Of a stretch of 41,214 bases of DNA, positions 25,261 through 36,518 are shown one piece after another (the first letter of the stretch is position 1; each line of letters starts with the position of its first letter). The DNA is taken from the NCBI GenBank assembly GCA_016842085.1, contig JAEVEX010000055.1, positions 1 to 41,214 on the forward strand, written 5' to 3'. The translations under genes and the position numbers were made by a program. Source of the DNA: Candidatus Thermoflexus tengchongensis (GTDB taxonomy: Bacteria > Chloroflexota > Anaerolineae > Thermoflexales > Thermoflexaceae). Under the pieces are notes generated by a model that saw nothing but the letters and a program-made list of their open reading frames with translations, was not told where the DNA came from and ran no database searches.

Positions 25261-25300
25261 AGATACGGGGTAAAATACATATTCGGATGAGTATCTGAAT
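25261..25300 (+). promoter_or_regulatory. Candidate promoter/operator of the toxin-antitoxin pair
   Basis: TAAAAT at 25271-25276 is a plausible -10. It sits inside an inverted repeat AGATAC (25261-25266)/GTATCT (25291-25296). A nested imperfect palindrome ATTCGGA/TCTGAAT spans 25281-25300. Antitoxins usually repress their own operons at such sites. The -35 is weak. Confidence 0.4.
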
Positions 25301-25322
25301 GCCCATCCATGGAGGTGTCCCT

Positions 25323-25604
25323 GTGCAGAAAGTCATCGGTGTGACCGAGCTACAGCGGCGCTTCCGGGCCGTGCTGGACGAGGTGGCGAAGCAGGGCGTC
25401 TTCTACGTGCTCACCCGCGGCAGCCGGCCCGAAGCCGTCCTCATCCCCTATGAAACCTTCCTGCGCTACCAGGCGCTGGAGGAAAAAGAAGTCCTGGCCC
25501 GCCTGGACCGCCTGCTGGCGCGGCTGGCAGAGCAGAACGTGGCCCGGAGTGACGAGGAAGTGGCCGCGGATGTGGAAGCCGCGCTGGCCGAGGCGCGCCG
25601 CTGA
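25323..25604 (+). CDS. Phd/YefM-like antitoxin
   Basis: A 93-residue protein starting at GTG 25323, with GGAGGTG 7 nt upstream; an ATG at 25299 lacks a ribosome site. The N-terminal part ([20 protein letters not shown], then [19 protein letters not shown]) has the Phd/YefM dimer-and-DNA-binding pattern. The C-terminal half is charged and helical ([20 protein letters not shown]) and likely wraps the toxin. The stop overlaps the toxin start as TGATG. Confidence 0.82.
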
Positions 25605-26044
25605 TGCGGGCAGTGGTGGACACGAATATCCTGGTGCGGGCGCTGATTCGGCCCCAGGGCACAGTGGGGCCGGTCCTCTTCCACCTGCGGCGGGGGGACT
25701 ATACCCTCCTATACAGTGATGCCACCCTGGAAGAGCTGGTGGCGGTGCTTCACCGGCCGCGCATTCGGGAGAAGTACGGCCTCAGCGACGAGGACATTCG
25801 CACCGTGGTGGCGCTGATTCTCCTCCGGGGAGAGCACGTCACGCCCCATATACAGATCCGTGCATGTCGTGACCCTCACGATGACAGGTTCCTCGAGGTG
25901 GCAGTGAGCGGCCGGGCGGACCTCATTGTCAGCGGCGATGAGGACCTGCTTGTCCTCTCGCCGTTTCAGGGCATTCCCATCGTGTCCCCGCGCGAGTTTC
26001 TAAAAATGCTCGCGGCCGAAACGGAGAAAGGGGAGGGGCCGTGA
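25604..26044 (+). CDS. PIN-domain toxin (PIN_3, COG1569 type)
   Basis: A 146-residue PIN domain. Acidic metal-site residues are visible: D6 (VVDTN), E43/E44 (ATLEEL), D90/D93/D94 (RDPHDDRFLEVA) and D112/D114 (SGDEDLL). Such proteins are Mg-dependent RNases, many cutting tRNA or rRNA; the target here is unknown. It overlaps the antitoxin by 1 bp and belongs to the putative toxin group rather than classic VapC. Confidence 0.87.
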   Translation: MRAVVDTNILVRALIRPQGTVGPVLFHLRRGDYTLLYSDATLEELVAVLHRPRIREKYGLSDEDIRTVVALILLRGEHVTPHIQIRACRDPHDDRFLEVAVSGRADLIVSGDEDLLVLSPFQGIPIVSPREFLKMLAAETEKGEGP

Positions 26045-26240
26045 GGCCGTCTCCCCTTCGCTTGTGCCTGGAGGACCTTCCGTGCCACTGAACTTTTTCG
26101 AATAGGCTCTAAGAATCCTGGGTTGCCGGTTCGTGGTTGAGGGATTCTGGGCCTTGAGGGCCTGGCCTGACTGGGGTCTCAGCTTGCTGATCCGCCGAAA
26201 CCCATGAAAGCTGGAAAGCCCCGCCTTTTCGCTCATCCTC
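26045..26240. other. Non-coding stretch after the toxin gene
   Basis: I see no convincing gene. Open frames occur on the minus strand but show no family pattern or ribosome site. It ends at the -35 box of the next promoter. Confidence 0.5.
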
Positions 26241-26269
26241 TTGACAGAAAATCGGAGACGTGCTATATA
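26241..26269 (+). promoter_or_regulatory. Strong sigma-70-type promoter of the sulfur locus
   Basis: TTGACA at 26241-26246, an exact 17-bp spacer, and TATATA at 26264-26269. The predicted start near 26276 is about 410 nt before the rhodanese ATG. It is one of the best -35/-10 matches in the window. Confidence 0.7.
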
Positions 26270-26685
26270 TAACGGCAAACCTCTGGGGTCGTCGAAGGCC
26301 ATGGCTGGGATGCGCGCAACCCCACTCGCTGGCGCGAGGGGCGCTCCGCGATGGCGGATCGCGCAGCGGGTGGACTTCATCTCCTCGATGAACACCTGTA
26401 TCTGTCCTGAGCGGGGGCAGAAGGCGGCCGCCCGCTTGGGACGTGCGCCCCGCTGAGTGGAACCGACCTCCTTCTGCCTCCGCCTTTCCTCATCTCCTGA
26501 CGGAATCACCCTGGCTCAGATCCGCTCGGCGTCCTCTCCGGCTATCCCTGCTGCTTCGCCCGGATGGCGTTTGCTGTAAACGTCCCTGCATATCCCATTC
26601 GGGGGGATGGGGATAGGCCGGGCGCAGAGCGATGGCGGCCCTTCTCTGTCTCTTTCCCCATAAACCCTGATCCGGGAGGTTGGTC
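26270..26685 (+). other. Long leader or unannotated RNA upstream of rhodanese gene
   Basis: About 410 nt follow the promoter with no convincing protein. The first part can fold: CTCGC-TGGC-GCGAG, and GCGAT-GGCG-GATCGC are adjacent hairpins near 26329-26366. A 51-codon frame from ATG 26301 ending in GRAPR has no family resemblance or strong ribosome site. It may be a regulatory leader, a small RNA, or a relic of a decayed gene. I recognise no riboswitch class. Confidence 0.4.
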
Positions 26686-27531
26686 ATGGCGACGTATGCG
26701 GATCCGCTGGCCCTGGTGGACACGGAGTGGGTGGCGCAGCACCTGCAGGACCCGAAGGTGCGGATCGTGGAGGTGGATTATGACCCGGCCAGCGCCTATC
26801 ATCTGGGCCACATCCCGGGCGCTGTGCTCTTCGACTGGCGGAAGGATCTGAACGACCCGGTGCGGCGGGACATCCTGAGCAGGGAGGCCTTCGAGGCCCT
26901 CAACAGCCGCGCCGGGATCTCCAACGACACCACGGTGGTGCTTTACGGGGACTTCCGCAACTGGTTCGCGGCCTTCGCCTTCTGGATCTACAAGCTCTAT
27001 GGCCATCAGGATGTGCGCCTGCTGAACGGCGGCCGCAAGAAGTGGATCGAGGAGAAGCGGCCCCTCACCGAGGAGGTGCCCTCCTACCCGCCGGCAACCT
27101 ACCAGGCGCAGGAGCCCGACGCCCGCCTGCGGGCACATCTGCCCTATGTCCTGAACGTTCTGGGGAAGCGCGGGATAGTGCTGGTGGATGTGCGCTCGCC
27201 GGCGGAGTTCACCGGGGAGATCACCGCTCCGCCGGAGTATCCCAACGAGGCGGCTCAGCGGGGCGGCCACATCCCTGGGGCGGTGAACATCCCATGGTCG
27301 AAGGCCCTGAACGACGATGACACCTTCAAGGATGCCGAGTCCCTGCGCCGGATCTATGAGGAGGCAGGGGTCACCCCGGACAAGGAGGTGATCACCTATT
27401 GTCGCATCGGGGAGCGTTCTTCGGTGACCTGGTTCGTGTTGCGCCATCTGCTGGGCTACCCCCATGTCCGCAACTATGACGGTTCCTGGTCGGAGTGGGG
27501 CAACACCATCGGCGTTCCGATCGAGCGTTAA
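26686..27531 (+). CDS. Thiosulfate sulfurtransferase (two-domain rhodanese)
   Basis: A 281-residue tandem rhodanese. The inactive N-terminal domain spans about 10-125 ([10 protein letters not shown]), the active C-terminal one 150-281 ([23 protein letters not shown]), with catalytic C239 in the loop CRIGERSS. It moves sulfane sulfur from thiosulfate or a persulfide to an acceptor. GGGAGGTTGGTC precedes the ATG at 26686; an in-frame TTG lies two codons earlier. It heads a plus-strand run of sulfur-related genes and may hand persulfide to the TusA-like protein encoded next. Confidence 0.94.
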
Positions 27532-27540
27532 GGGGAGGCG

Positions 27541-27570
27541 AGGGTGGGCCTCCGGCCGGAGGCCCACCCT
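27541..27570. repeat. Perfect 30-bp palindrome after rhodanese gene
   Basis: AGGGTGGGCCTCCGG and its exact complement abut without a gap, 9 bp after the rhodanese stop. As RNA it would form a very stable hairpin (13 bp with a 4-nt loop). No U-run follows, so it may be an attenuator or a block to 3' exonucleases setting the ratio of the rhodanese to downstream messages. Confidence 0.8.
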
Positions 27571-27591
27571 TCAGAAAACCGGAGGGAAGCC

Positions 27592-27831
27592 ATGGCACGG
27601 ATTGTGCGGACCGTGGATCTGCGGGCGGGGATCGAGCTGTGCACGGATTCGCCGATCGGTCGGGTTCAACAGGCCCTGGCCGGCCTGGGTCCGGAGGAGG
27701 CGGTGGCGGTGTGGGTGAAAGGTTACGCCGATGAGTTCACTGTCACCGCATGGGCGAAGCGGAACGGATACACCGTCCTGGAGGTGCAGCGGGAGGGCGA
27801 GGAAGCCCGCATCCTGCTCGGGGTCTCCTAA
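27592..27831 (+). CDS. TusA-like sulfur-carrier protein
   Basis: A 79-residue protein with the TusA/SirA outline: VDLRAGIELC at the N-terminus with a single Cys (C17), then PIGRVQQALAGLGPEEAVAV, DEFTVTAWAKRNGYTV and a final strand ARILLGV. The usual CPxP is changed to C-T-D-S-P, so the Cys is kept and the first Pro is not. It may carry persulfide from the upstream rhodanese. GGAGGGAAGCC precedes the ATG. The TusA assignment rests on fold pattern and context and is less certain than the rhodanese. Confidence 0.7.
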   Translation: MARIVRTVDLRAGIELCTDSPIGRVQQALAGLGPEEAVAVWVKGYADEFTVTAWAKRNGYTVLEVQREGEEARILLGVS

Positions 27832-27877
27832 CAAGTAGAGATGCCGGGAGCAATCCTAATGCTCAGGAGGGCGAAAC

Positions 27878-28426
27878 ATGTTGCTCCTGATCGAGGCCAC
27901 ACCGACGGCTCTGAGGGATCAAAAGGTTGTTGCGCAGGCGCTGGAATCCCTGGCTCGAGCTCTGCAGGTCCGAGGAGGCCGCCTGGTGGAAGCACAGGTG
28001 GCGACGGATCGCTCTCGTCTCTTCCTGATTGTCGAAACCCCGGAAGGCGAGCTCGTCGAGCCGGTGGTGCGCGGGGTGGGACTGGAGGTTCGGATGTCCA
28101 AGCCGGTGCGCCTGATCGGTCAGGAGATCGATGAGATCTCCCGTAGCCGGTCCGACGTGGACTTCATCGTGGAATGGAACTTCCCACCCGGATTGACGAT
28201 GGAGGCCTACCTGGAGCGTAAGCGGGCGAATTCGCCGCGTTACGCGCTGGTCCCGGAAGTGCGCTTTCTGCGCACTTACGTCTGTGAGGATATGAGCAAA
28301 TGCCTCTGCTTTTATGAGGCAGAGCGGGAAGAAGATGTCCGGCGGGCCCGAGAGGTAGTGGAAGCCCCGGTGGACGCCATTATCCGGGTGGATCGGGGGT
28401 TTCCCGATCTGGGGAGGACAGAATGA
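27878..28426 (+). CDS. DUF4242 family protein, two-part
   Basis: A 182-residue protein. The C-terminal half has the DUF4242 pattern (VRFLRTYVCEDMSKCLCFYE followed by REEDVRRAREVVEAPVDAII), a ferredoxin-like fold suggested to bind metals. The N-terminal half (LEATPTALRD-type start, VRGVGLEVRMSKPVRLIGQE) is less clear, so it may be two related domains or a fusion. The role is unknown. AGGAGGGCGAAAC precedes the ATG, and the stop overlaps the next gene as ATGA. Confidence 0.75.
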   Translation: MLLLIEATPTALRDQKVVAQALESLARALQVRGGRLVEAQVATDRSRLFLIVETPEGELVEPVVRGVGLEVRMSKPVRLIGQEIDEISRSRSDVDFIVEWNFPPGLTMEAYLERKRANSPRYALVPEVRFLRTYVCEDMSKCLCFYEAEREEDVRRAREVVEAPVDAIIRVDRGFPDLGRTE

Positions 28427-29178
28427 GCTTGCTGAGCGCGGAGGGGTTGTCGAAAAGCTATTTCATCCATGGGCGTCGGGTGCCGGTGCTTATGCGAGTT
28501 TCCATGGAGGTCGCGGCAGGCCGGGTGCTGGCGGTACTGGGGCCCAGCGGGGCGGGGAAATCCACCCTCCTGCGCTTGCTGGCCGGTCTGGAGCCTCCGG
28601 ATGAGGGACATGTGAAGCTTTGTGGGGAGCCCATCCAGGCAGGCCATCCGGCGCTGGCGTTGATGTTCCAGGACCCATGTTTGCTGCCCTGGCTCTCGGT
28701 GCGGGAGAATGTCCGTTTTGGGATTCGATTCATGGGGCTGTCGGGGGCGGAATCCCAGCGGAGGGTGGATGAGGCCCTGGCGTGGGTGGGGTTGCAGGAG
28801 GTCGCGGATTGGTATCCCCATCAGCTCTCCGGGGGAATGGCGCAGCGGGTGGCACTGGCCCGTGCCCTGGCCCGTCAGCCTCGGGTTCTTTTGCTGGATG
28901 AGCCTTTCAGCGCCCTGGATCCGCTTGCTCGGCAGGCCCTGGGGGCGTTGATCCGGCGGGCCGCCGGAGAGGGGATCGGGGTAGTCATGGTCACCCACAA
29001 TGTGGAGGAAGCGATCCAGCTGGCCGACGAGGTGCTGGTCCTCACAGCGCGTCCGGGTCGGGTACTTCTGCATCAGCCCTTACGAGGATGGGAAGCACCT
29101 CATCTGAGCCTGCGCCAGGCCCTGGAGCTGGCGGCCGCGGGTCGCTGGGTTTCCCACCATGCACCCGCCTTTCGATGA
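28423..29178 (+). CDS. ABC importer ATPase, SsuB/TauB/NrtD type
   Basis: A 251-residue nucleotide-binding subunit: Walker A GPSGAGKST (40-48), Q-loop Q83, signature LSGGM (135-139), Walker B VLLLDE (155-160), H-loop H192 (VTHN). With the next two genes it forms an importer of the nitrate/sulfonate/taurine class. The 4-bp overlap with the DUF4242 gene shows translational coupling. Confidence 0.93.
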   Translation: MSLLSAEGLSKSYFIHGRRVPVLMRVSMEVAAGRVLAVLGPSGAGKSTLLRLLAGLEPPDEGHVKLCGEPIQAGHPALALMFQDPCLLPWLSVRENVRFGIRFMGLSGAESQRRVDEALAWVGLQEVADWYPHQLSGGMAQRVALARALARQPRVLLLDEPFSALDPLARQALGALIRRAAGEGIGVVMVTHNVEEAIQLADEVLVLTARPGRVLLHQPLRGWEAPHLSLRQALELAAAGRWVSHHAPAFR

Positions 29179-29201
29179 ACCGCAGGTTAGGAGGGAGGAG
29201 G

Positions 29202-30422
29202 ATGGACCGTTCTCCAATTCGACTCTGGCGGCGTCGGGAGTTGCTCAAGACGATGGGAGGTGTGCTTCTGGGCTGGGGGATCGGTGGGCTTTCCGGTTGT
29301 TTTCCTCGGACGCCCCCCTCATCGCCCGTTCAAGCGCCAGGTTCTGGGACCGGTCCGCGTGAAGGACGTCCGTTGCGGATTGGCTACCTTCCGATCACCG
29401 ATGCGTCGGCCCTTCTGGTGGCAGAGGCCCTGGGTTTCTATCGAGATGAAGGGCTGGGAAGCGCAGATCTCCGGCTGTTCCGCTCATGGGCTCAGTTGAT
29501 GGAAGCCTTTCAGGCCCGACAGGTGGATGTGATCCATCTGTTGATGCCAGCAGCGATCTGGCTGCGCTACAGTCGCCATTTCCCTGCACGGGTTGTGGCC
29601 TGGAACCACGTAAACGGCTCTGCGTTGACGGTCCGTCCGGAGATTCAGCAGTTGAAGGATCTGGGCGGACAGACCGTAGCGGTGCCCTTCTGGTATTCCA
29701 TTCATAACGTGATTCTGCAGATGCTTTTACGAAAGGCGGGCCTGAGGCCCGTGCTCGGCGGAGAGGGGAAGGTGGGTGCGGAGGAAGTGCGTTTGATTGT
29801 GTTGCCGCCTCCGGAGATGCCCCCAGCCCTGGCCTCCGGACGGATCGCTGGATTCATCGTGGCTGAGCCCTTCAATGCGCTGGCCGAGGTTCAGGGATCA
29901 GGACGCATCCTCCGCTTCACGGGAGATGTGTGGAAAGAGCATGCCTGTTGTGTGGTGGTGATGCATGAGGAAGATCTGGAGCGGACCCCCGCGTGGGCCC
30001 AAGGCGTGGTTCGGGCCATCGTTCGCGCCCAGATCTGGTTACGTCACAATCGACAGGAGGCCGCTCGCCTGCTCTCCCGGACGGGCCGGGCTTACCTGCC
30101 CCATCCTCCAGAGGTTCTGGAGCGGGTGTTCGCCGCTCATCTCCACGGATATGAAGGTATCCTCCAGCATCCTGAGTGGTCGCCCATGCGGATCGATTTT
30201 CAGCCCTATCCCTATCCTACGTATACGGAAGCGATCGTCTCCGCCTTGAAGGAGACTGAAGTGGAAGGCGAGAAGGAGTTCCTGCGAGCTCTCGACCCTG
30301 CGGATGCGGCTCGGGATCTGGTGCTGGAAGGGCTGGTGAGGCAGGCGATCGAAGAGCTGGGTGGTCCTGGGATCTTCGGCCAGCCGGCAACGTGGAGCCG
30401 ACAAGAGCACATCGAGCCTTGA
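29202..30422 (+). CDS. ABC substrate-binding lipoprotein, SsuA/NrtA-like, Tat-type signal
   Basis: A 406-residue protein. The signal contains a twin-arginine run (WRRRELLK, about 9-16) and a hydrophobic core ending in LSGC, lipid Cys C33, so it looks like a Tat-exported lipoprotein. The periplasmic-binding fold begins LRIGYLPITDASALLVAEAL and includes VDVIHLLMPAAIW. The family binds sulfonates, taurine, nitrate or aromatic acids; the ligand is not readable. The start is ATG 29202, with AGGAGGGAGG upstream; ATG 29175 is in frame but overlaps the ATPase gene. The C-terminus is longer than in typical SsuA. Confidence 0.88.
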   Translation: MDRSPIRLWRRRELLKTMGGVLLGWGIGGLSGCFPRTPPSSPVQAPGSGTGPREGRPLRIGYLPITDASALLVAEALGFYRDEGLGSADLRLFRSWAQLMEAFQARQVDVIHLLMPAAIWLRYSRHFPARVVAWNHVNGSALTVRPEIQQLKDLGGQTVAVPFWYSIHNVILQMLLRKAGLRPVLGGEGKVGAEEVRLIVLPPPEMPPALASGRIAGFIVAEPFNALAEVQGSGRILRFTGDVWKEHACCVVVMHEEDLERTPAWAQGVVRAIVRAQIWLRHNRQEAARLLSRTGRAYLPHPPEVLERVFAAHLHGYEGILQHPEWSPMRIDFQPYPYPTYTEAIVSALKETEVEGEKEFLRALDPADAARDLVLEGLVRQAIEELGGPGIFGQPATWSRQEHIEP

Positions 30423-30425
30423 GCC

Positions 30426-30507
30426 ATGAAGCGCAGCGGAATGGCAATTTTGCTGCCCTGTATTGGGTTAGGGATCGGATGGGGACTCTGGGAGGGGCTC
30501 ATCCGCA
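30426..30507 (+). other. Out-of-frame N-terminus of the ABC permease
   Basis: From ATG 30426, 4 nt after the upstream stop, a frame encodes a hydrophobic first helix (AILLPCIGLGIGWGLWEGLI) as expected for the start of SsuC-type permeases. The conserved remainder of the permease is one frame off (+1) and begins near 30508. A GGGAGGGG run at 30490-30497 is a natural place for an indel. Confidence 0.6.
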
Positions 30508-31194
30508 TTGCAATGGCCAGCTCCTCCATGGCCACCGCGTTCTCCAGGGCCCTCCCTGGAAGCTCTGTATCATCTGATCCGGGAGGGCGTGCTTCCCTAT
30601 CACGCGGGGGTAAGTCTCCGTCGGGTCCTGATCGGGCTGGGGCTTGCAACAGGAGCGGGGGTGCCCCTCGGGCTGGCCCTCGGGTATTTCCCGAGCCTGG
30701 AGCGGATCACCGCTCCGATCCTTCAGCTTGTGCGCACAATCTCTCCGCTATCCTGGATGCCCATTGCGGTGATTGCCCTGGGAATCGGGGATCGCGCGGT
30801 GATCTTCCTGATTGCTGTCGCATCGGTGTGGCCAATTCTGTTGAACACCGCTTCAGGGGTGCGTCACCTGAACCGGAACTGGCTATGGCTGGCCCGCAGC
30901 GTGGGGGCTTCGACGCCTCATATACTGATCCACATCGCGATCCCAGCAGTTTGGCCTCAGCTCTTCGCCGGCCTTCGGATGGCATTGGGCATCGCATGGG
31001 TGGTACTGGTCCCGGCGGAGATGCTCGGGGTGAGCAGCGGGCTGGGCTATTTTCTCCTGGACACCCGTGACCGTCTGAGCTATTCGGAGCTGATGGCAGC
31101 GATCCTGGGGATTGGTTGCGTGGGCCTGTTGCTGGACGCCGGGATCCGCGCGCTGGAAGCTTGCTGGCGGAGGTCAGGAGAGGGACGAGCATGA
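30508..31194 (+). CDS. ABC importer permease, SsuC/TauC type (frameshifted or truncated 5' end)
   Basis: A 228-residue frame from TTG 30508 covers the binding-protein-dependent permease domain: GVSLRRVLIGLGLATGAG, LQLVRTISPLSWMPIAVIAL, and the EAA-like coupling loop ARSVGASTPHILIHIAIPAV. TM1 is in the frame of 30426 instead. Either a single-base indel split the gene, or translation starts at the TTG (GGGAGGGG about 10 nt upstream) and the first helix is lost. The 3' end overlaps the flavoprotein as ATGA, so the distal frame is the one kept in register with the operon. Confidence 0.82.
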   Translation: MQWPAPPWPPRSPGPSLEALYHLIREGVLPYHAGVSLRRVLIGLGLATGAGVPLGLALGYFPSLERITAPILQLVRTISPLSWMPIAVIALGIGDRAVIFLIAVASVWPILLNTASGVRHLNRNWLWLARSVGASTPHILIHIAIPAVWPQLFAGLRMALGIAWVVLVPAEMLGVSSGLGYFLLDTRDRLSYSELMAAILGIGCVGLLLDAGIRALEACWRRSGEGRA

Positions 31195-32915
31195 TCTGGC
31201 GCGGATATCGGGTGTCTGAGTGGACGTGTGACGTATTGATGATCGGGGCCGGCCTGGCCGGGTTGACTGCGGCCTGGGCGGCTGCGCGCGAGGGAGCCCG
31301 GGTGCTGGTGGCATGCAAGGGGTTCGCAGGGGCTGATGGGGTCAGCCCTTTCGCGGGCGGGGTGGTGCTGTATCTGCTGCCGGAGGACGATGAAGATGGG
31401 TTTCTCCAGGAACATGAGCGCCTCAACGAAGGGCTAATCCATCCAGAAGTTCTCCGGCGGGTGATCCGCCAGAACACCTCCCTCTGGCAGGCGTGGGGAC
31501 GGTGGGGGGCCCCACTGGAGCGGGAGATCGATGGTTCTCCCCGCCGACGCTGGTTGCGGATCGGCGGGCGCTCCCATGTTCCCCGGCTGGCTGTGGACAG
31601 TATGAAGATGATGCAGTTTCTCCGACGCCTGGCTTTGCGGTCGGGTGTCCGCTTGCTGGAACAGACATGCATTACCCGTCTTCTCCAGGACGCCGGGGGA
31701 ACGCTGGTGGGGGCTGTTGGCTTTCAAAGGCAAGAGGGAAAGCTGGTGATCATTCGCGCTCCAGCAGTGGTCATGGCCTCCGGCGGATGCTCATGGCGGG
31801 GGGCTCATATGGGGCAGCACAACGTGATGGGGGATGGCGTGGCCATCGCTGCTCGCCTCGGGGCAGAGCTGGCCTCTATGGAGTTCTGCGTAAGCTATGT
31901 GGCCACCTGCTCATTGTTCGACAGCCATGGTCAGTGTGTGCTGGCCGCCCTCGGGGGGAAATTTCGGAATTCCCTGGGAGAGAATATCCTGATCCGCCAT
32001 GGCCTGCCAGAGCCCGCTCCTACTCATCAGCTGGCGCTGGCGATGGTCCTCGAGCTCCTGGAAGGCCGGGGACCGATTCAATTCGATCTGCGGGGGATCT
32101 CCGAAAACGAGCGCCGCGATTGGGAAGAACGGTTTCCCCTGGTAGCACGCGGGCTGAGGCGCACAGGACGGGATATTTTCGCTGAGCCGGTGCCCTGGTT
32201 TCCGGGGTTCACGGGCTCGATCGGGGGAAGCGGAGGGATTCGCTGGCAGAGGCTCGGCGGAGAGACCAACGTCCCCGGCCTGTTCGTGGCTGGGGATGCC
32301 GCCATGCGCACGCCGGTCACCGGGGCGGGCAGCGGCATCACCTTTCTGAATCTGGCATGGGCTGGGGTAAGCGGTCTCTGGGCCGGCTTGTCGGCTGCCC
32401 GTTGGGCCCGGGGTTATTTGGCTGCGGGGCCCGAATGGACCCGGGAGGCGATCGAGGAGGGCCTGAAAGAAACCGTGGGGCCTCTGGAGCGTCGAACAGG
32501 GTTTTCCTCCCGATCGTTGCTCCGTCAGCTTCAGCAGGTGGTGGTGGACCCTTGCGTCAATTTCCTCCGAACCCGGGAGGGGTTGCAGGCCGCCCTGTCC
32601 CGGATTCGCGAGATCCGCCGGGAGACCGAGATGCTGCGGGCAAGGGACTGGCACGATCTGGCCTGCTGTCATGAAGTTCGCCATGCGGCCCTGGTGGCGG
32701 AGGCCATGTTGGCCAGCGCGGTGGTCCGGGAGGAGAGCCGGGGATGGCATCGCCGTCTGGACTTCCCGAACCGGGGAGGACCCGAGTGGGAAGTCTGGAC
32801 AGCGGCGCGTCTGCGTCAGGATGGAGCAGATATGGATTTTGAGGTTCAACTCTGGCTGCCGTCCTCCTTAGGAACGGAGCCCCCGGAGGGCGCGGATGAT
32901 TTGCTTCGTGAATGA
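31191..32915 (+). CDS. AprA/FrdA-like FAD flavoprotein
   Basis: A 574-residue flavoprotein of the fumarate reductase/APS reductase alpha superfamily. FAD is bound by LMIGAGLAGLTAAW (GAGLAG 19-24) and GLFVAGDAAM; the capping domain lies between about 230 and 340. ARTICLE-type end motif is seen as VVREESRGWHRRLDFP. It is encoded with a two-cluster ferredoxin, as AprA is with AprB, yet next to a sulfonate-type importer. From memory, a flavoprotein/ferredoxin pair of this sort (asfAB) serves arylsulfonate desulfurisation in Pseudomonas putida. GGAGAGGGACG precedes the ATG at 31191, which overlaps the permease stop. Function is inferred. Confidence 0.83.
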   Translation: MIWRGYRVSEWTCDVLMIGAGLAGLTAAWAAAREGARVLVACKGFAGADGVSPFAGGVVLYLLPEDDEDGFLQEHERLNEGLIHPEVLRRVIRQNTSLWQAWGRWGAPLEREIDGSPRRRWLRIGGRSHVPRLAVDSMKMMQFLRRLALRSGVRLLEQTCITRLLQDAGGTLVGAVGFQRQEGKLVIIRAPAVVMASGGCSWRGAHMGQHNVMGDGVAIAARLGAELASMEFCVSYVATCSLFDSHGQCVLAALGGKFRNSLGENILIRHGLPEPAPTHQLALAMVLELLEGRGPIQFDLRGISENERRDWEERFPLVARGLRRTGRDIFAEPVPWFPGFTGSIGGSGGIRWQRLGGETNVPGLFVAGDAAMRTPVTGAGSGITFLNLAWAGVSGLWAGLSAARWARGYLAAGPEWTREAIEEGLKETVGPLERRTGFSSRSLLRQLQQVVVDPCVNFLRTREGLQAALSRIREIRRETEMLRARDWHDLACCHEVRHAALVAEAMLASAVVREESRGWHRRLDFPNRGGPEWEVWTAARLRQDGADMDFEVQLWLPSSLGTEPPEGADDLLRE

Positions 32916-33165
32916 GGAGCGCTGTGTGGGATGTGGCCTGTGTGTGCGGGTCTGTCCACTGGATGTGTTCCGAATGGTTCCGCGCGATGGACGCCGAAAG
33001 CCGGTGGCCTGCGCCGTCTATCCCGAGGATTGCATGAGCTGTTTCATCTGTGAGGAATACTGCCCGGCAAACTGTTTGTATGTTAGCCCGGAGCGGAGCC
33101 CGCTGCATGCGGTATGGCCTTTCCATGAGGAGATCGAAAAAACGAAAAATGGAGGAAACAAATGA
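32896..33165 (+). CDS. Two-[4Fe-4S] ferredoxin, AprB-like partner
   Basis: An 89-residue ferredoxin. Cluster 1 ligands are C10, C13, C16, C20 (CVGCGLCVRVCP); cluster 2 C46, C49, C52, C56 (CMSCFICEEYCP). Between them lies an 18-residue insert with C39, and C60 follows. It should pass electrons to or from the flavoprotein encoded just upstream. The start ATG 32896 overlaps that gene by 20 bp (GGAGGGCGCGG upstream), and the stop overlaps the next gene as ATGA. Confidence 0.93.
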   Translation: MICFVNEERCVGCGLCVRVCPLDVFRMVPRDGRRKPVACAVYPEDCMSCFICEEYCPANCLYVSPERSPLHAVWPFHEEIEKTKNGGNK

Positions 33166-33662
33166 GCGAGATCGAAGCGCTCCTGCGCAACAACGAGGTC
33201 TATGCGGCGTCCTTCGCTTATGGCCACCTTCCGGCCGCCCCCTCCCGGCGGCTGGCCATCGTGACCTGCATGGACGCGCGCATCGATGTGCATCGGATCC
33301 TGGGCCTGCGGGAGGGCGAAGCACACGTCATCCGCAACGCCGGAGGGGTGGTCACGGAGGATGTGATCCGTTCCCTGACGATCTCCCAGCGCCTGCTGGG
33401 CACGCGGGAGATCATGCTCATCCATCACACGGATTGTGGCATGTTGACGTTCCGGGACGATGAGCTGAAGGATCGCATCCAGGCGGAGATCGGGATCCGG
33501 CCGCCCTTCGCTTTCGAGGCCTTCTCCGACCTGGAGGAGGATGTCCGACAGTCCATCCGCCGGCTTCAGGCCAGCCCCTTCCTGCCCTATAAGGACGCGA
33601 TCCGTGGATTTGTTTACGATGTGCGCACCGGCCGGCTTCATGAAGTCCAACCGGATCCGTGA
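33162..33662 (+). CDS. Beta-class carbonic anhydrase, clade-D-like
   Basis: A 166-residue protein. Zinc and active-site residues are C36, D38 and R40 (TCMDAR), H89 and C92 (HHTDCG). The compact form with EAHVIRNAGGVVTEDVIRSL and the C-terminal GFVYDVRTGRLHEV resembles the Rv1284 group (clade D). That clade also contains the carbonyl sulfide hydrolase of Thiobacillus thioparus, so in this sulfur setting COS or CS2 may be the substrate rather than CO2. GGAGGAAACAA precedes the ATG; both ends overlap neighbours. Confidence 0.92.
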   Translation: MSEIEALLRNNEVYAASFAYGHLPAAPSRRLAIVTCMDARIDVHRILGLREGEAHVIRNAGGVVTEDVIRSLTISQRLLGTREIMLIHHTDCGMLTFRDDELKDRIQAEIGIRPPFAFEAFSDLEEDVRQSIRRLQASPFLPYKDAIRGFVYDVRTGRLHEVQPDP

Positions 33663-33700
33663 AACCCGTGAGGTTGGAAGGTCTCTCCAGGAGGTGGGAA

Positions 33701-35095
33701 ATGGTGCTCTGGAAACCGGATCCCAGCTTCTATCCGTCCCCCCGGCTGGCCATGCAGGCGCCCCCGGAGCGCCTGGCTTATGTGGCGACGGTGAATCCGA
33801 ATCCGGATGGGCGGCCTGACGCTCTAGCCGTGGTGGATGTGGACCCACGTTCCCCCACCTATGGGCGGGTGGTTGGAAGGGTGGATCTTCCCTATGCCGG
33901 CGATGAGCTGCATCATTTCGGCTGGAACGCATGCAGCTCGGCGCTGTGCCCCTATGCGCCCCATCCGCATGTTCAGCGCCGATACCTGATCCTCCCCGGG
34001 TTGCGCTCATCCCGGATCTATATTGTGGACACCCAGCCGGATCCCCGGAATCCCCGTCTGGTGCGGGTGATCGAGCCGGAGGTGGTCGCCTCCCGGACGG
34101 GCTACTCACGTCCCCACACGGTGCATTGTGGGCCGGACGGCATCTACCTCAGCGCTCTGGGGAGCCTGGAGGGGGATGGGCCCGGCGGGATCTTTGTGCT
34201 CGATCATTACACCTTTGAGGTCCTGGGGCGCTGGGAGGTGGATCGGGGGCCGCAGTTTCTCGCTTACGATTTCTGGTGGCATCTCGGTTACGATGTGATG
34301 ATCACCAGCGAATGGGGGACGCCTCGTATGGTGGAGAATGGGGTCGATGTGGAGGCCCTGCTGAACGGCCGCTACGGCCACCGGCTCCATGTCTGGGATC
34401 TGCGCCGCCGGCGGCATCTCCAGGCTCTGGATCTCGGGGCAGAGCACCAGATGGTCCTGGAGCTGCGGCCTGCCCATGATCCGACAAAGGCCTACGGGTT
34501 CGCAGGGGTTGTTCTCTCGCTGAAAGACCTTTCCGCATCGGTCTGGCTATGGTATCGGGAGAACAGCGCCTGGTCGGTGCGAAAGGTGATCGAGATTCCT
34601 GCGGAGCCAGCGGATCCCGACCTGCTCCCCCCTATCTTAAAGGACTTCCGCGCCGTCCCGCCCCTGGTGACCGACATCAACCTCTCCCTGGATGATCGCT
34701 TTCTGTATGTTTCATGCTGGGGCACCGGGGAGTTGCGCCAGTATGATGTTTCCGATCCCTTCCATCCCCGGTTGACTGGGGCCGTGCGCCTCGGGGGGAT
34801 CGTGAGCCGCGCCCCCCATCCGAAGGATCCCGCACGGCCGCTGAACGGAGGCCCCCAGATGGTGGAGATCAGCCGGGACGGCCGCCGCATCTACGTGACG
34901 AACTCCCTGTATATCCCCTGGGATCCGATCTTCTACCCGGACGGCATCCGGGGATGGATGGTGAAGCTGGATGCGGGTTCGGACGGAGGGCTGGCGGTGG
35001 ATCCAGCGTTTTTCGTGGAGTTCGGGGACTACCGGCCGCACCAGGTCCGGCTGGAAGGAGGGGATGCCTCATCGGACTCCTTCTGCTATCCGTGA
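33701..35095 (+). CDS. Selenium-binding protein SBP56 / methanethiol oxidase family
   Basis: A 464-residue seven-bladed propeller of the SBP56 family. Signatures are WKPDPSFYPSPRLAM at the start, LHHFGWNACSSALCPYAP, TGYSRPHTVHCGPDGIYLS and the C-terminal DYRPHQVRLEGGD. Human SELENBP1 and bacterial MtoX members oxidise methanethiol to formaldehyde, sulfide and H2O2 and need copper; several His residues and Cys are kept here. The start is ATG 33701 (AGGAGGTGGGAA upstream, and it fits the family N-terminus); a GTG at 33659 overlaps the previous stop. No signal peptide is visible, unlike periplasmic MtoX. Confidence 0.93.
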   Translation: MVLWKPDPSFYPSPRLAMQAPPERLAYVATVNPNPDGRPDALAVVDVDPRSPTYGRVVGRVDLPYAGDELHHFGWNACSSALCPYAPHPHVQRRYLILPGLRSSRIYIVDTQPDPRNPRLVRVIEPEVVASRTGYSRPHTVHCGPDGIYLSALGSLEGDGPGGIFVLDHYTFEVLGRWEVDRGPQFLAYDFWWHLGYDVMITSEWGTPRMVENGVDVEALLNGRYGHRLHVWDLRRRRHLQALDLGAEHQMVLELRPAHDPTKAYGFAGVVLSLKDLSASVWLWYRENSAWSVRKVIEIPAEPADPDLLPPILKDFRAVPPLVTDINLSLDDRFLYVSCWGTGELRQYDVSDPFHPRLTGAVRLGGIVSRAPHPKDPARPLNGGPQMVEISRDGRRIYVTNSLYIPWDPIFYPDGIRGWMVKLDAGSDGGLAVDPAFFVEFGDYRPHQVRLEGGDASSDSFCYP

Positions 35096-35117
35096 GGAAG
35101 CAGTGGAAGGCGGAGAG

Positions 35118-35759
35118 ATGGCGGACTGGTTCCCATGGGGTGGGATATTTCTGCTGGGGGCTTATCATGGCCTGAACCCCGCGATGGGATGGCTGTTCGC
35201 TCTGGCTCTGGGCCTGCAGGAGCGGCGGCGCCGGGCCCTCCTGCAGGCCCTGGTGCCGATCGCGATGGGGCACTTCCTCGCCGTTGGGGCGGCCGCCCTT
35301 GTTCTCATCGCCCTTCCGAATGTTCTGCCCCTCCGGTTTGTGCGCGGGGGAATGGCCTTGATCCTTGCAGGTTTTGGCGCCTACCGGCTGGTCCGCGCTC
35401 GCCATCTCCGGTGGGTCGGCCTGCGGGTGGGATTCCGCGACCTGGTGGTGTGGTCGACACTGATGGCCTCCAGCCACGGCGCAGGCCTCATGCTCTCCCC
35501 TTTCTTGCTGGGCCCAATATGTGTGGTTCCCGGGCTGCACGGAAGTGAAGGGTTCTATTCGGCATGGCTCGTGAGTCTGCGGGATGGCATCGGCATCGTG
35601 GGAATGCATACGCTGGGGTATTTGCTGACCATGGCTCTGGTTGCATGGATTGTATACGAAGGCGGTCATCTGGCCCTCCTTCGACATACCTGGGTGAACC
35701 TGGATTTCCTCTGGGCGTTCGCATTGCTTGGCACCGCATTTCTCTCGCTCCTTGGATGA
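35118..35759 (+). CDS. Polytopic membrane protein with His-Gly motifs
   Basis: A 213-residue protein with about five or six hydrophobic segments (IFLLGAYHGLNPAMGWLFAL, GHFLAVGAAALVLIAL, GMALILAGFGAY, GMHTLGYLLTMALVAWIVY, FLWAFALLGTAFLSLL). Conserved-looking motifs are YHGLNPAMGW and SSHGAGLML, which recall the HG/NP motifs of NicO- or TauE-like metal or anion carriers; the family is not certain. It follows SBP56 closely and could deliver copper or export a sulfur product. The start could be ATG 35118 (GGCGGAGAG) or ATG 35064 (GGAAGGAGGGG), the latter within the SBP56 gene. Confidence 0.75.
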   Translation: MADWFPWGGIFLLGAYHGLNPAMGWLFALALGLQERRRRALLQALVPIAMGHFLAVGAAALVLIALPNVLPLRFVRGGMALILAGFGAYRLVRARHLRWVGLRVGFRDLVVWSTLMASSHGAGLMLSPFLLGPICVVPGLHGSEGFYSAWLVSLRDGIGIVGMHTLGYLLTMALVAWIVYEGGHLALLRHTWVNLDFLWAFALLGTAFLSLLG

Positions 35760-36086
35760 AGAGAATCCGCCTCGGTCGCCCTCTATGCTGGGAACCCAGC
35801 GGCCCCAGTTTTGAAAATCTGGAAAGCCCTGGGAACCGAAACCGAACCCGAAACCCAAACCGGCGCGTTGACAGGGTTCACCTTATCGGCTAAAATACGC
35901 GATGCTTTTTTGATCTCCGGGCTCCGGGTTCATCCCCTCCGCCGGAGGAGCCCCCCAATCGGGCGTTGCGCATCGGGTCTCCTTCCGGAGAGGGGAGGGA
36001 AAGGAGTCCTTCTGCCTTCTCCATCGGCACCGGGTGGCATAAGTCCTGTCCATCTTAAACCTCAGGATCGCGAGGGATAAAGGAGA
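35760..36086 (+). other. rpsL upstream region with long leader
   Basis: No gene is seen in these 327 bp. At 35832-35862 there is a run of GAACC/GAAACC-like units. After the promoter at 35868-35896 comes a leader of about 184 nt that can fold (CCTCCGCCGGAGG near 35936-35948 and TCTCC...GGAGA near 35979-35995). It ends with AAAGGAGA before the rpsL ATG. Confidence 0.55.
35868..35896 (+). promoter_or_regulatory. Sigma-70-type promoter of rpsL
   Basis: TTGACA at 35868-35873, a 17-bp spacer and TAAAAT at 35891-35896. The predicted start near 35903 gives a leader of about 184 nt before rpsL. Confidence 0.72.
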
Positions 36087-36518
36087 ATGCCGACCATCAA
36101 CCAGCTGATCCGCAAGGGGCGTAAGCCGAAAGTTCGGAAAAGCAAGTCGCCTGCCCTTCACTGGGTGTATAACTCCCTGACCGGGGAGCGCTACTGGGAT
36201 CCGAAGGGGGCTCCACAGCGCCGCGGGGTGTGTGTCGTGGTGCGCACCATGACGCCCAAGAAGCCCAACTCGGCGCTGCGGAAGATCGCCCGGGTCCGCC
36301 TGACCAGCGGGGTGGAGGTCACCGCTTACATCCCCGGTGAGGGCCATAATCTCCAGGAGCACTCGGTGGTCCTGGTCCGCGGGGGCCGCGTGAAGGATCT
36401 CCCGGGGGTGCGCTATCACATCATCCGGGGCGCCCTGGATGCGGCGGGTGTGGAGAAGCGACGCCAGGGGCGCTCGAAATATGGCGCCAAGCGGCCCAAG
36501 GAGCAGAAGGGCCGGTAA
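36087..36518 (+). CDS. rpsL: Ribosomal protein uS12
   Basis: A 143-residue uS12. Decoding-centre motifs are [18 protein letters not shown] (about 53-70, with the wild-type Lys linked to streptomycin sensitivity) and [30 protein letters not shown]. It has the longer N-terminal insert ([20 protein letters not shown]) common in Gram-positive-like S12. The usual downstream partners rpsG and fusA are missing: a convergent rluB follows after 61 bp. Confidence 0.97.

Follow-up and report, generated by a model that had tools for sequence, protein, structure and literature searches.

The stretch of DNA of the hot-spring bacterium Candidatus Thermoflexus tengchongensis analyzed here (contig JAEVEX010000055.1, 41,214 nucleotides, referred to as the window) comes from a 3.9-Mb genome in 100 contigs that is 95% complete. 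It contains a locus of 11 tightly packed plus-strand genes (26686-35759), which is a mosaic of an Asf-like core and several separately inherited sulfur genes. The centre of the locus (27878-33165) is probably an Asf-like organosulfur-acquisition cassette, a reading to which we assign a probability of about 0.62, with a carbonic anhydrase gene and a gene pair encoding an SBP56 family protein and a membrane protein as independent accessories. The core appears to represent a new clade in thermophiles, distantly sister to the bacterial aromatic-sulfonate (Asf) system. Gene content, conservation of gene order, phylogeny, loss of substrate residues, and decay in relatives are all established.

A five-gene core recurs in distant genomes

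An earlier reading of this DNA, made from its letters alone (the original prediction), had described a compact eleven-gene locus at 26241-35759 that imports and oxidizes an organosulfur compound. Pfam searches bore out its family assignments at family level, and all eleven plus-strand genes were confirmed as real, but the left edge did not hold. Since the open reading frame (ORF) at 26241-26456 is devoid of the coding-like codon bias seen in the neighbouring genes, it is no gene, and the locus begins with the start of the rhodanese gene at 26686. Consecutive genes are spaced, from the first to the last, by 60, 46, -4, 23, 3, -4, -20, -4, -4, and 22 nucleotides. The locus consists of the following genes.

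26686..27531, + strand: two-domain thiosulfate sulfurtransferase (rhodanese), active loop CRIGERS (Pfam Rhodanese, 2 domains, E 6.8e-39)
27592..27831, + strand: TusA-like protein, Cys kept (Pfam TusA 29.1 bits, barely above the cut-off of 28.6)
27878..28426, + strand: DUF4242/SCO4226-like protein, conserved KCxC (Pfam SCO4226-like, E 4.8e-21)
28423..29178, + strand: ABC importer ATPase, SsuB/NrtD type, core (ABC_tran, E 2.4e-36; order kept in relatives)
29202..30422, + strand: solute-binding protein, NitT/TauT class, RR and lipobox-like N terminus, core (NMT1_2, E 1.2e-46)
30426..31194, + strand: ABC importer permease, SsuC type, apparently split by a frameshift, core (BPD_transp_1, E 9.5e-22 for 30508-31194)
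31191..32915, + strand: FAD flavoprotein, AsfA-like clade, core (FAD_binding_2, E 2.9e-25; Succ_DH_flav_C; tree)
32896..33165, + strand: 2[4Fe-4S] ferredoxin, AsfB-like, core (Fer4, two stretches, E 1.5e-11)
33162..33662, + strand: beta-carbonic anhydrase, Rv1284 type, accessory (Pro_CA, E 3.4e-14)
33659..35095, + strand: SBP56 family protein, cytoplasmic type, accessory (SBP56, 662 bits)
35118..35759, + strand: membrane protein, partner of SBP56 in Chloroflexota (no Pfam match)

A search of genome contigs with the flavoprotein alignment returned few loci. The gene order SsuB-SsuA-SsuC-flavoprotein-ferredoxin was found in ten loci: the window, G002 (a congener), G030 (a genome from another family), G300, four genomes belonging to a single Chloroflexota family, and two loci in one Bacillota genome, one of them on a contig that starts within SsuC. 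These five genes are the conserved unit, accompanied by DUF4242 in most close members. A DUF4242 homologue is present at five of the nine core loci long enough for judgement (the window, G002, G030, one Bacillota locus, and G300, where it follows the ferredoxin), making the protein a core or near-core member. Within the stretches fetched, no match to the carbonic anhydrase or SBP56 was found at the other core loci. Between G002 and the window, the rhodanese and TusA-like proteins are 84-95% identical, whereas the core proteins are only about 51-60% identical, and the G002 core resembles that of G030. Because of this discordance, we regard transfer of the core between lineages as probable.

Congeners have lost and kept parts of the locus separately

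The same site was found in seven congeners, with rplI on its left and rpsL on its right where contigs show them. The rhodanese and TusA-like genes are kept in all seven, whereas none has all eleven genes together, nor does any other sampled genome. In G002 the site reads rhodanese-TusA-DUF4242-SsuBAC-flavoprotein-ferredoxin, with no carbonic anhydrase and no SBP56; in G008 it consists of rhodanese-TusA-carbonic anhydrase-rpsL; and in G001, G003, and G005 only rhodanese-TusA is seen. In G004 and G006, rhodanese-TusA is followed by a ferredoxin that is truncated, a carbonic anhydrase that is intact, and SBP56 and membrane genes that are both broken. We interpret the truncated ferredoxins preceding the carbonic anhydrase as deletion scars. 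Found beside the carbonic anhydrase and a broken SBP56 gene, they indicate a fuller set that is older and now decaying, the longer arrangement being ancestral and lost piecewise. Conservation of the gene set among relatives, on which the original prediction depended, thus receives a mixed answer: no congener has the complete set, but the scars in G004 and G006 point to a longer set that once existed.

The core recurs without rhodanese-TusA, the carbonic anhydrase, or the SBP56-membrane pair, and these three persist or recur without the core. The rhodanese, which is 93-96% identical across the seven congeners, is a genus-wide gene outside the core cassette; together with the TusA-like gene that accompanies it in each, it is a fixed feature of the genus whether or not the core is present. 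The nearest solved structure is the rhodanese 1uar (E 4.8e-115). The TusA-like protein has the sequence LCTDSPIG in place of the CPxP motif of TusA, which is not present. Comparison of congeners thus turns an apparent operon into a site whose modules are lost and kept separately.

The flavoprotein and ferredoxin are related to presumed AsfA/AsfB

In all ten loci of the clade, the ferredoxin gene follows that of the flavoprotein, and in the window the two overlap. The original prediction had called the flavoprotein AprA/FrdA-like, which is true of its fold but goes no further. The His and Arg residues that bind dicarboxylates in SdhA and NadB (HYxMGG, APRD, and GANR) are gone, GFTGSIGGSGG, APTH, and GAGSG being aligned there; because they are missing, the protein is not a fumarate reductase or an aspartate oxidase. 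On the NCBIfam aprA model it scores 58.9 against a cut-off of 641.8, AprA having been compared by profile score only and the residue alignments being to SdhA and NadB. Together with the tree, these results rule out both AprA and fumarate reductase. The protein shares the FAD_binding_2 fold with AprAB, fumarate reductase, and L-aspartate oxidase (AprAB and FrdAB also have an iron-sulfur partner), but differs from them in having no substrate His/Arg, and a maximum-likelihood tree puts SdhA, NadB, and an FrdA-like protein on a branch of their own with good support.

The clade of the window protein has as its sister group in this tree (UFB 97/SH 98) the flavoproteins of pairs from Cupriavidus metallidurans, Azospirillum, Sinorhizobium, and Paenibacillus. 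It is thus sister to, and not nested in, the clade with the presumed AsfA of the C. metallidurans CHR2 replicon. Within the Chloroflexota/Bacillota clade, flavoprotein identity is 42-59%; the Cupriavidus protein is about 29% identical and, by inspection of its sequence, also without the dicarboxylate-binding residues. The Cupriavidus genome paper places the reductase-ferredoxin AsfA/AsfB, proposed for aromatic desulfonation, on the CHR2 replicon (PMC2864759), and because only one such flavoprotein-ferredoxin pair was found there, it is presumed to be AsfA/AsfB. A second flavoprotein on this replicon was set aside, being FrdA-like and part of an operon of another kind.

According to a review, asfRABC comprises a binding protein, a transporter, a reductase/ferredoxin, and a LysR regulator, working with ssu (PMC4267179). 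Like the asfRABC clusters of Pseudomonas putida S-313, Cupriavidus, Variovorax, and Rhodococcus, the window locus combines a reductase-ferredoxin pair (ferredoxin adjacent, 32896-33165) with a solute-binding protein and an ABC transporter (28423-31194, including the apparently frameshifted SsuC), and its flavoprotein clade is sister to that of the presumed AsfA, fumarate-binding residues being lost in both. Unlike them, it has no LysR regulator and includes DUF4242, in a genome with no SsuD. With ssuEADCB and tauABCD it shares an importer of the same NitT/TauT class, but this genome has no Ssu/Tau-type monooxygenase or dioxygenase, the electron-transfer pair being found instead. In other phyla, pairs of annotated relatives adjoin sulfonate-type SsuABC importers, LLM monooxygenases, SfnB, SsuD, or cupin-rhodanese-HupE genes, and it is this company that argues for a role in organosulfur acquisition. 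Superfamily flavoprotein-ferredoxin pairs are also carried by plasmids, pNe_5 of Nostoc edaphicum (L150) and p2 of Paracoccus methylovorus (L151), inside rich organosulfur islands with SsuD, several LLM proteins, rhodanese, and HupE/UreJ.

The solute-binding protein of the importer is 45-69% identical to its relatives. In Foldseek searches NrtA, CmpA, SsuA, and TauA are all close, and the ligand class cannot be read from the fold. A Sao (Sec-assisted organometallic) transporter was rejected, with model scores well under the cut-off. The permease gene SsuC, the sole damaged gene of the eleven, lies in two frames, with the first transmembrane segment encoded from 30426, the body from about 30541, and a frameshift near 30541-30545 in this assembly; either the assembly is wrong here or the gene has begun to decay.

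Sulfur metabolism of the genus and a candidate mechanism

Thermoflexus hugenholtzii has been reported to possess a NitT/TauT transporter set and no assimilatory sulfate reduction or sulfate transport (PMC8129789). NIR_SIR, ATP-sulfurylase, and TauD were found in none of the nine genomes of the genus that were searched. SsuD was not found in the window genome either: its four LLM proteins are all of the F420 type and score at most 78.7 on the SsuD model, against a cut-off of 518 bits. With neither SsuD nor NIR_SIR found, the textbook route, in which SsuD frees sulfite oxygenolytically and the sulfite is then reduced, is without both its first and its last enzyme. Given the absence of SsuD from this genome and of TauD, ATP sulfurylase, and the sulfite-reductase family from those searched, C-S bonds, if they are cleaved here, must be cleaved in some way other than the textbook Ssu/Asf one. 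The metagenome-assembled genome (MAG) SKYG36 of Thermoflexus is another member of this genus.

For DUF4242, the AlphaFold model (pLDDT 90.8) is a tandem dimeric alpha/beta-barrel, and Foldseek matches are to proteins of this fold, which is common to heme enzymes and putative monooxygenases. A literature search found no paper connecting DUF4242 with sulfonates.

From these findings we infer a substrate, a direction of electron flow, a role for DUF4242, and a fate for the sulfur. The substrate of the NitT/TauT-type importer would be an organosulfur anion (most likely a sulfonate), and the flavoprotein-ferredoxin pair, of the AsfA/AsfB kind, would supply electrons for C-S cleavage or would itself cleave the bond. 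Because the enzymes listed above are missing, the cleaving partner would probably be the flavoprotein itself or the dimeric alpha/beta-barrel protein DUF4242. The neighbouring rhodanese-TusA pair would most likely receive the sulfur in the form of sulfane sulfur or thiosulfate. The carbonic anhydrase (CO2/bicarbonate) and the SBP56-membrane pair (thiol oxidation) would be independent accessories at a shared site. That an Asf-like pair could in this way cleave C-S bonds without SsuD or TauD, through the flavoprotein or DUF4242, and pass sulfane sulfur to rhodanese-TusA in thermophiles without sulfate and sulfite assimilation is a tentative and rather speculative proposal. AsfA has long been used as a marker of aromatic-sulfonate use, with the role of the flavoprotein-ferredoxin pair only inferred. 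A clade in thermophiles without SsuD, TauD, or the sulfite-reductase family separates this pair from its usual monooxygenase, which makes its own chemistry testable, and the cassette would suggest a sulfur source for Thermoflexus-like organisms, which are thought unable to assimilate sulfate.

Alternative explanations

Several observations weigh against an Asf-like cassette. The Cupriavidus pair owes its identity to elimination on the replicon and not to a locus tag; by a rough estimate from published tag numbers, it would be about 100 kb away from its expected place, and no homologous pair was found at 780-829 kb of the replicon, where the published locus tags might fall. No LysR regulator (AsfR) is found among the eleven genes or in the flanks, and SsuD is missing from the genome, though both belong to Asf function as described. 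Proteins that bind nitrate or bicarbonate are as near to the solute-binding protein as SsuA/TauA are, more distant Chloroflexota relatives of the flavoprotein occur in loci without this importer, some of them with UbiD-like sequences, and SsuC looks frameshifted, so that import may no longer work in this strain. A binding-protein fold equally near NrtA and CmpA, and these distant homologues near UbiD-like sequences, would also suit import of an anion or small organic molecule other than a sulfur compound, which the flavoprotein-ferredoxin pair would reduce, with sulfur neighbours by coincidence. This is unlikely, considering how rich in sulfur-acquisition genes the neighbourhoods of related pairs are, that the genus is without sulfate assimilation genes, and that in the window, G002, and G030 the core borders on a rhodanese gene or what remains of one, with a rhodanese also nearby in Paracoccus.

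The split of SsuC between frames, together with the truncated ferredoxin and the broken SBP56 and membrane genes in G004 and G006, could also mean that the cassette is a decaying relic, whose importer is dead here and of which only rhodanese, TusA, and carbonic anhydrase are under selection. We consider this possible but doubtful, as no other core gene of the window is interrupted or shortened and a one-base metagenome assembly error would look identical; such a reading is about the cassette as it stands today and is compatible with an Asf-like function. The original prediction, a single pathway of eleven genes running from organosulfur import and C-S cleavage through methanethiol/COS oxidation to sulfur relay via rhodanese-TusA, is quite improbable. 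It can draw on tight gene spacing, on the order TusA-ferredoxin scar-carbonic anhydrase-SBP56-membrane in G004 and G006, which places the longer set before this strain, and on a distant genus of Chloroflexota in which a rhodanese likewise lies upstream of SBP56. Set against these are modules that are lost and kept independently, SBP56-membrane pairs without the core in 26 sampled loci, and a carbonic anhydrase that is Rv1284-like. What survives of that single route is import and redox handling by the importer-flavoprotein-ferredoxin core of the Asf-like cassette.

Accessory genes and flanking regions

Hydrolysis of carbonyl sulfide (COS) or CS2 by the beta-carbonic anhydrase, as originally suggested, is not indicated. 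The closest solved relative, with a nearly full-length match, is Mycobacterium tuberculosis Rv1284 (1ylk, 213 bits, compared with 138 for COS hydrolase and 94 for CS2 hydrolase), a genuine carbonic anhydrase, and on this nearest relative a clade D COS/CS2 hydrolase was judged improbable and rejected. Unlike Rv1284, the enzyme in the window adjoins an organosulfur cassette.

The SBP56 protein, for which the nearest solved structure is 2ece (E 4e-210), belongs to the SBP56 family as predicted but is no MtoX equivalog, scoring 101 on the NCBIfam model NF052453 against a cut-off of 650 bits. By inspection it keeps the copper-ligand motifs HH, HxxH, Asp, and Glu (DELHHFGWN, PHTVH, YDFWW, and LELRP), the ligands being those described for SELENBP1 (PMC10362175). 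Fold family and copper-site motifs are shared with the mtoX operon of Hyphomicrobium and Ruegeria. However, no signal peptide is evident, and the SCO1/SenC and MauG neighbours that belong to the definition of that operon (PMC5739008) are not beside SBP56, the adjoining genes being the carbonic anhydrase and, in their place, an unrelated membrane partner. In a sample of 29 Chloroflexota loci, SBP56 is followed by this membrane gene in 26, and two of the remaining three are cut short by the end of a contig; the two genes form a separate Chloroflexota pair. In one other Chloroflexota genus (L098, L105, L106, and L108), a rhodanese 57-63% identical to that of the window lies upstream of such a pair, which suggests a second recurring sulfur pairing. 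Bacterial methanethiol oxidases were recently reported to yield sulfane sulfur (PMC10936201); such a product would fit the occasional rhodanese neighbour of SBP56, but nothing points to a connection with the core.

Distant flavoprotein-ferredoxin pairs of two other Chloroflexota families (L057 and L058) have neighbours that resemble UbiD decarboxylases by sequence inspection. The locus is flanked upstream by a PIN toxin pair and rplI, and downstream by rpsL. A scan for promoters and terminators found sites no more numerous in the locus than in shuffled sequences; the sole sigma-70-like promoter match within 26000-36200 is at 35868-35896, past the last gene of the locus and just upstream of rpsL. 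Directly upstream of the locus, a Phd/YefM antitoxin gene is followed by that of the PIN-domain toxin (25299-26044), and this pair is found at the same place in G008, with 91-94% identity.

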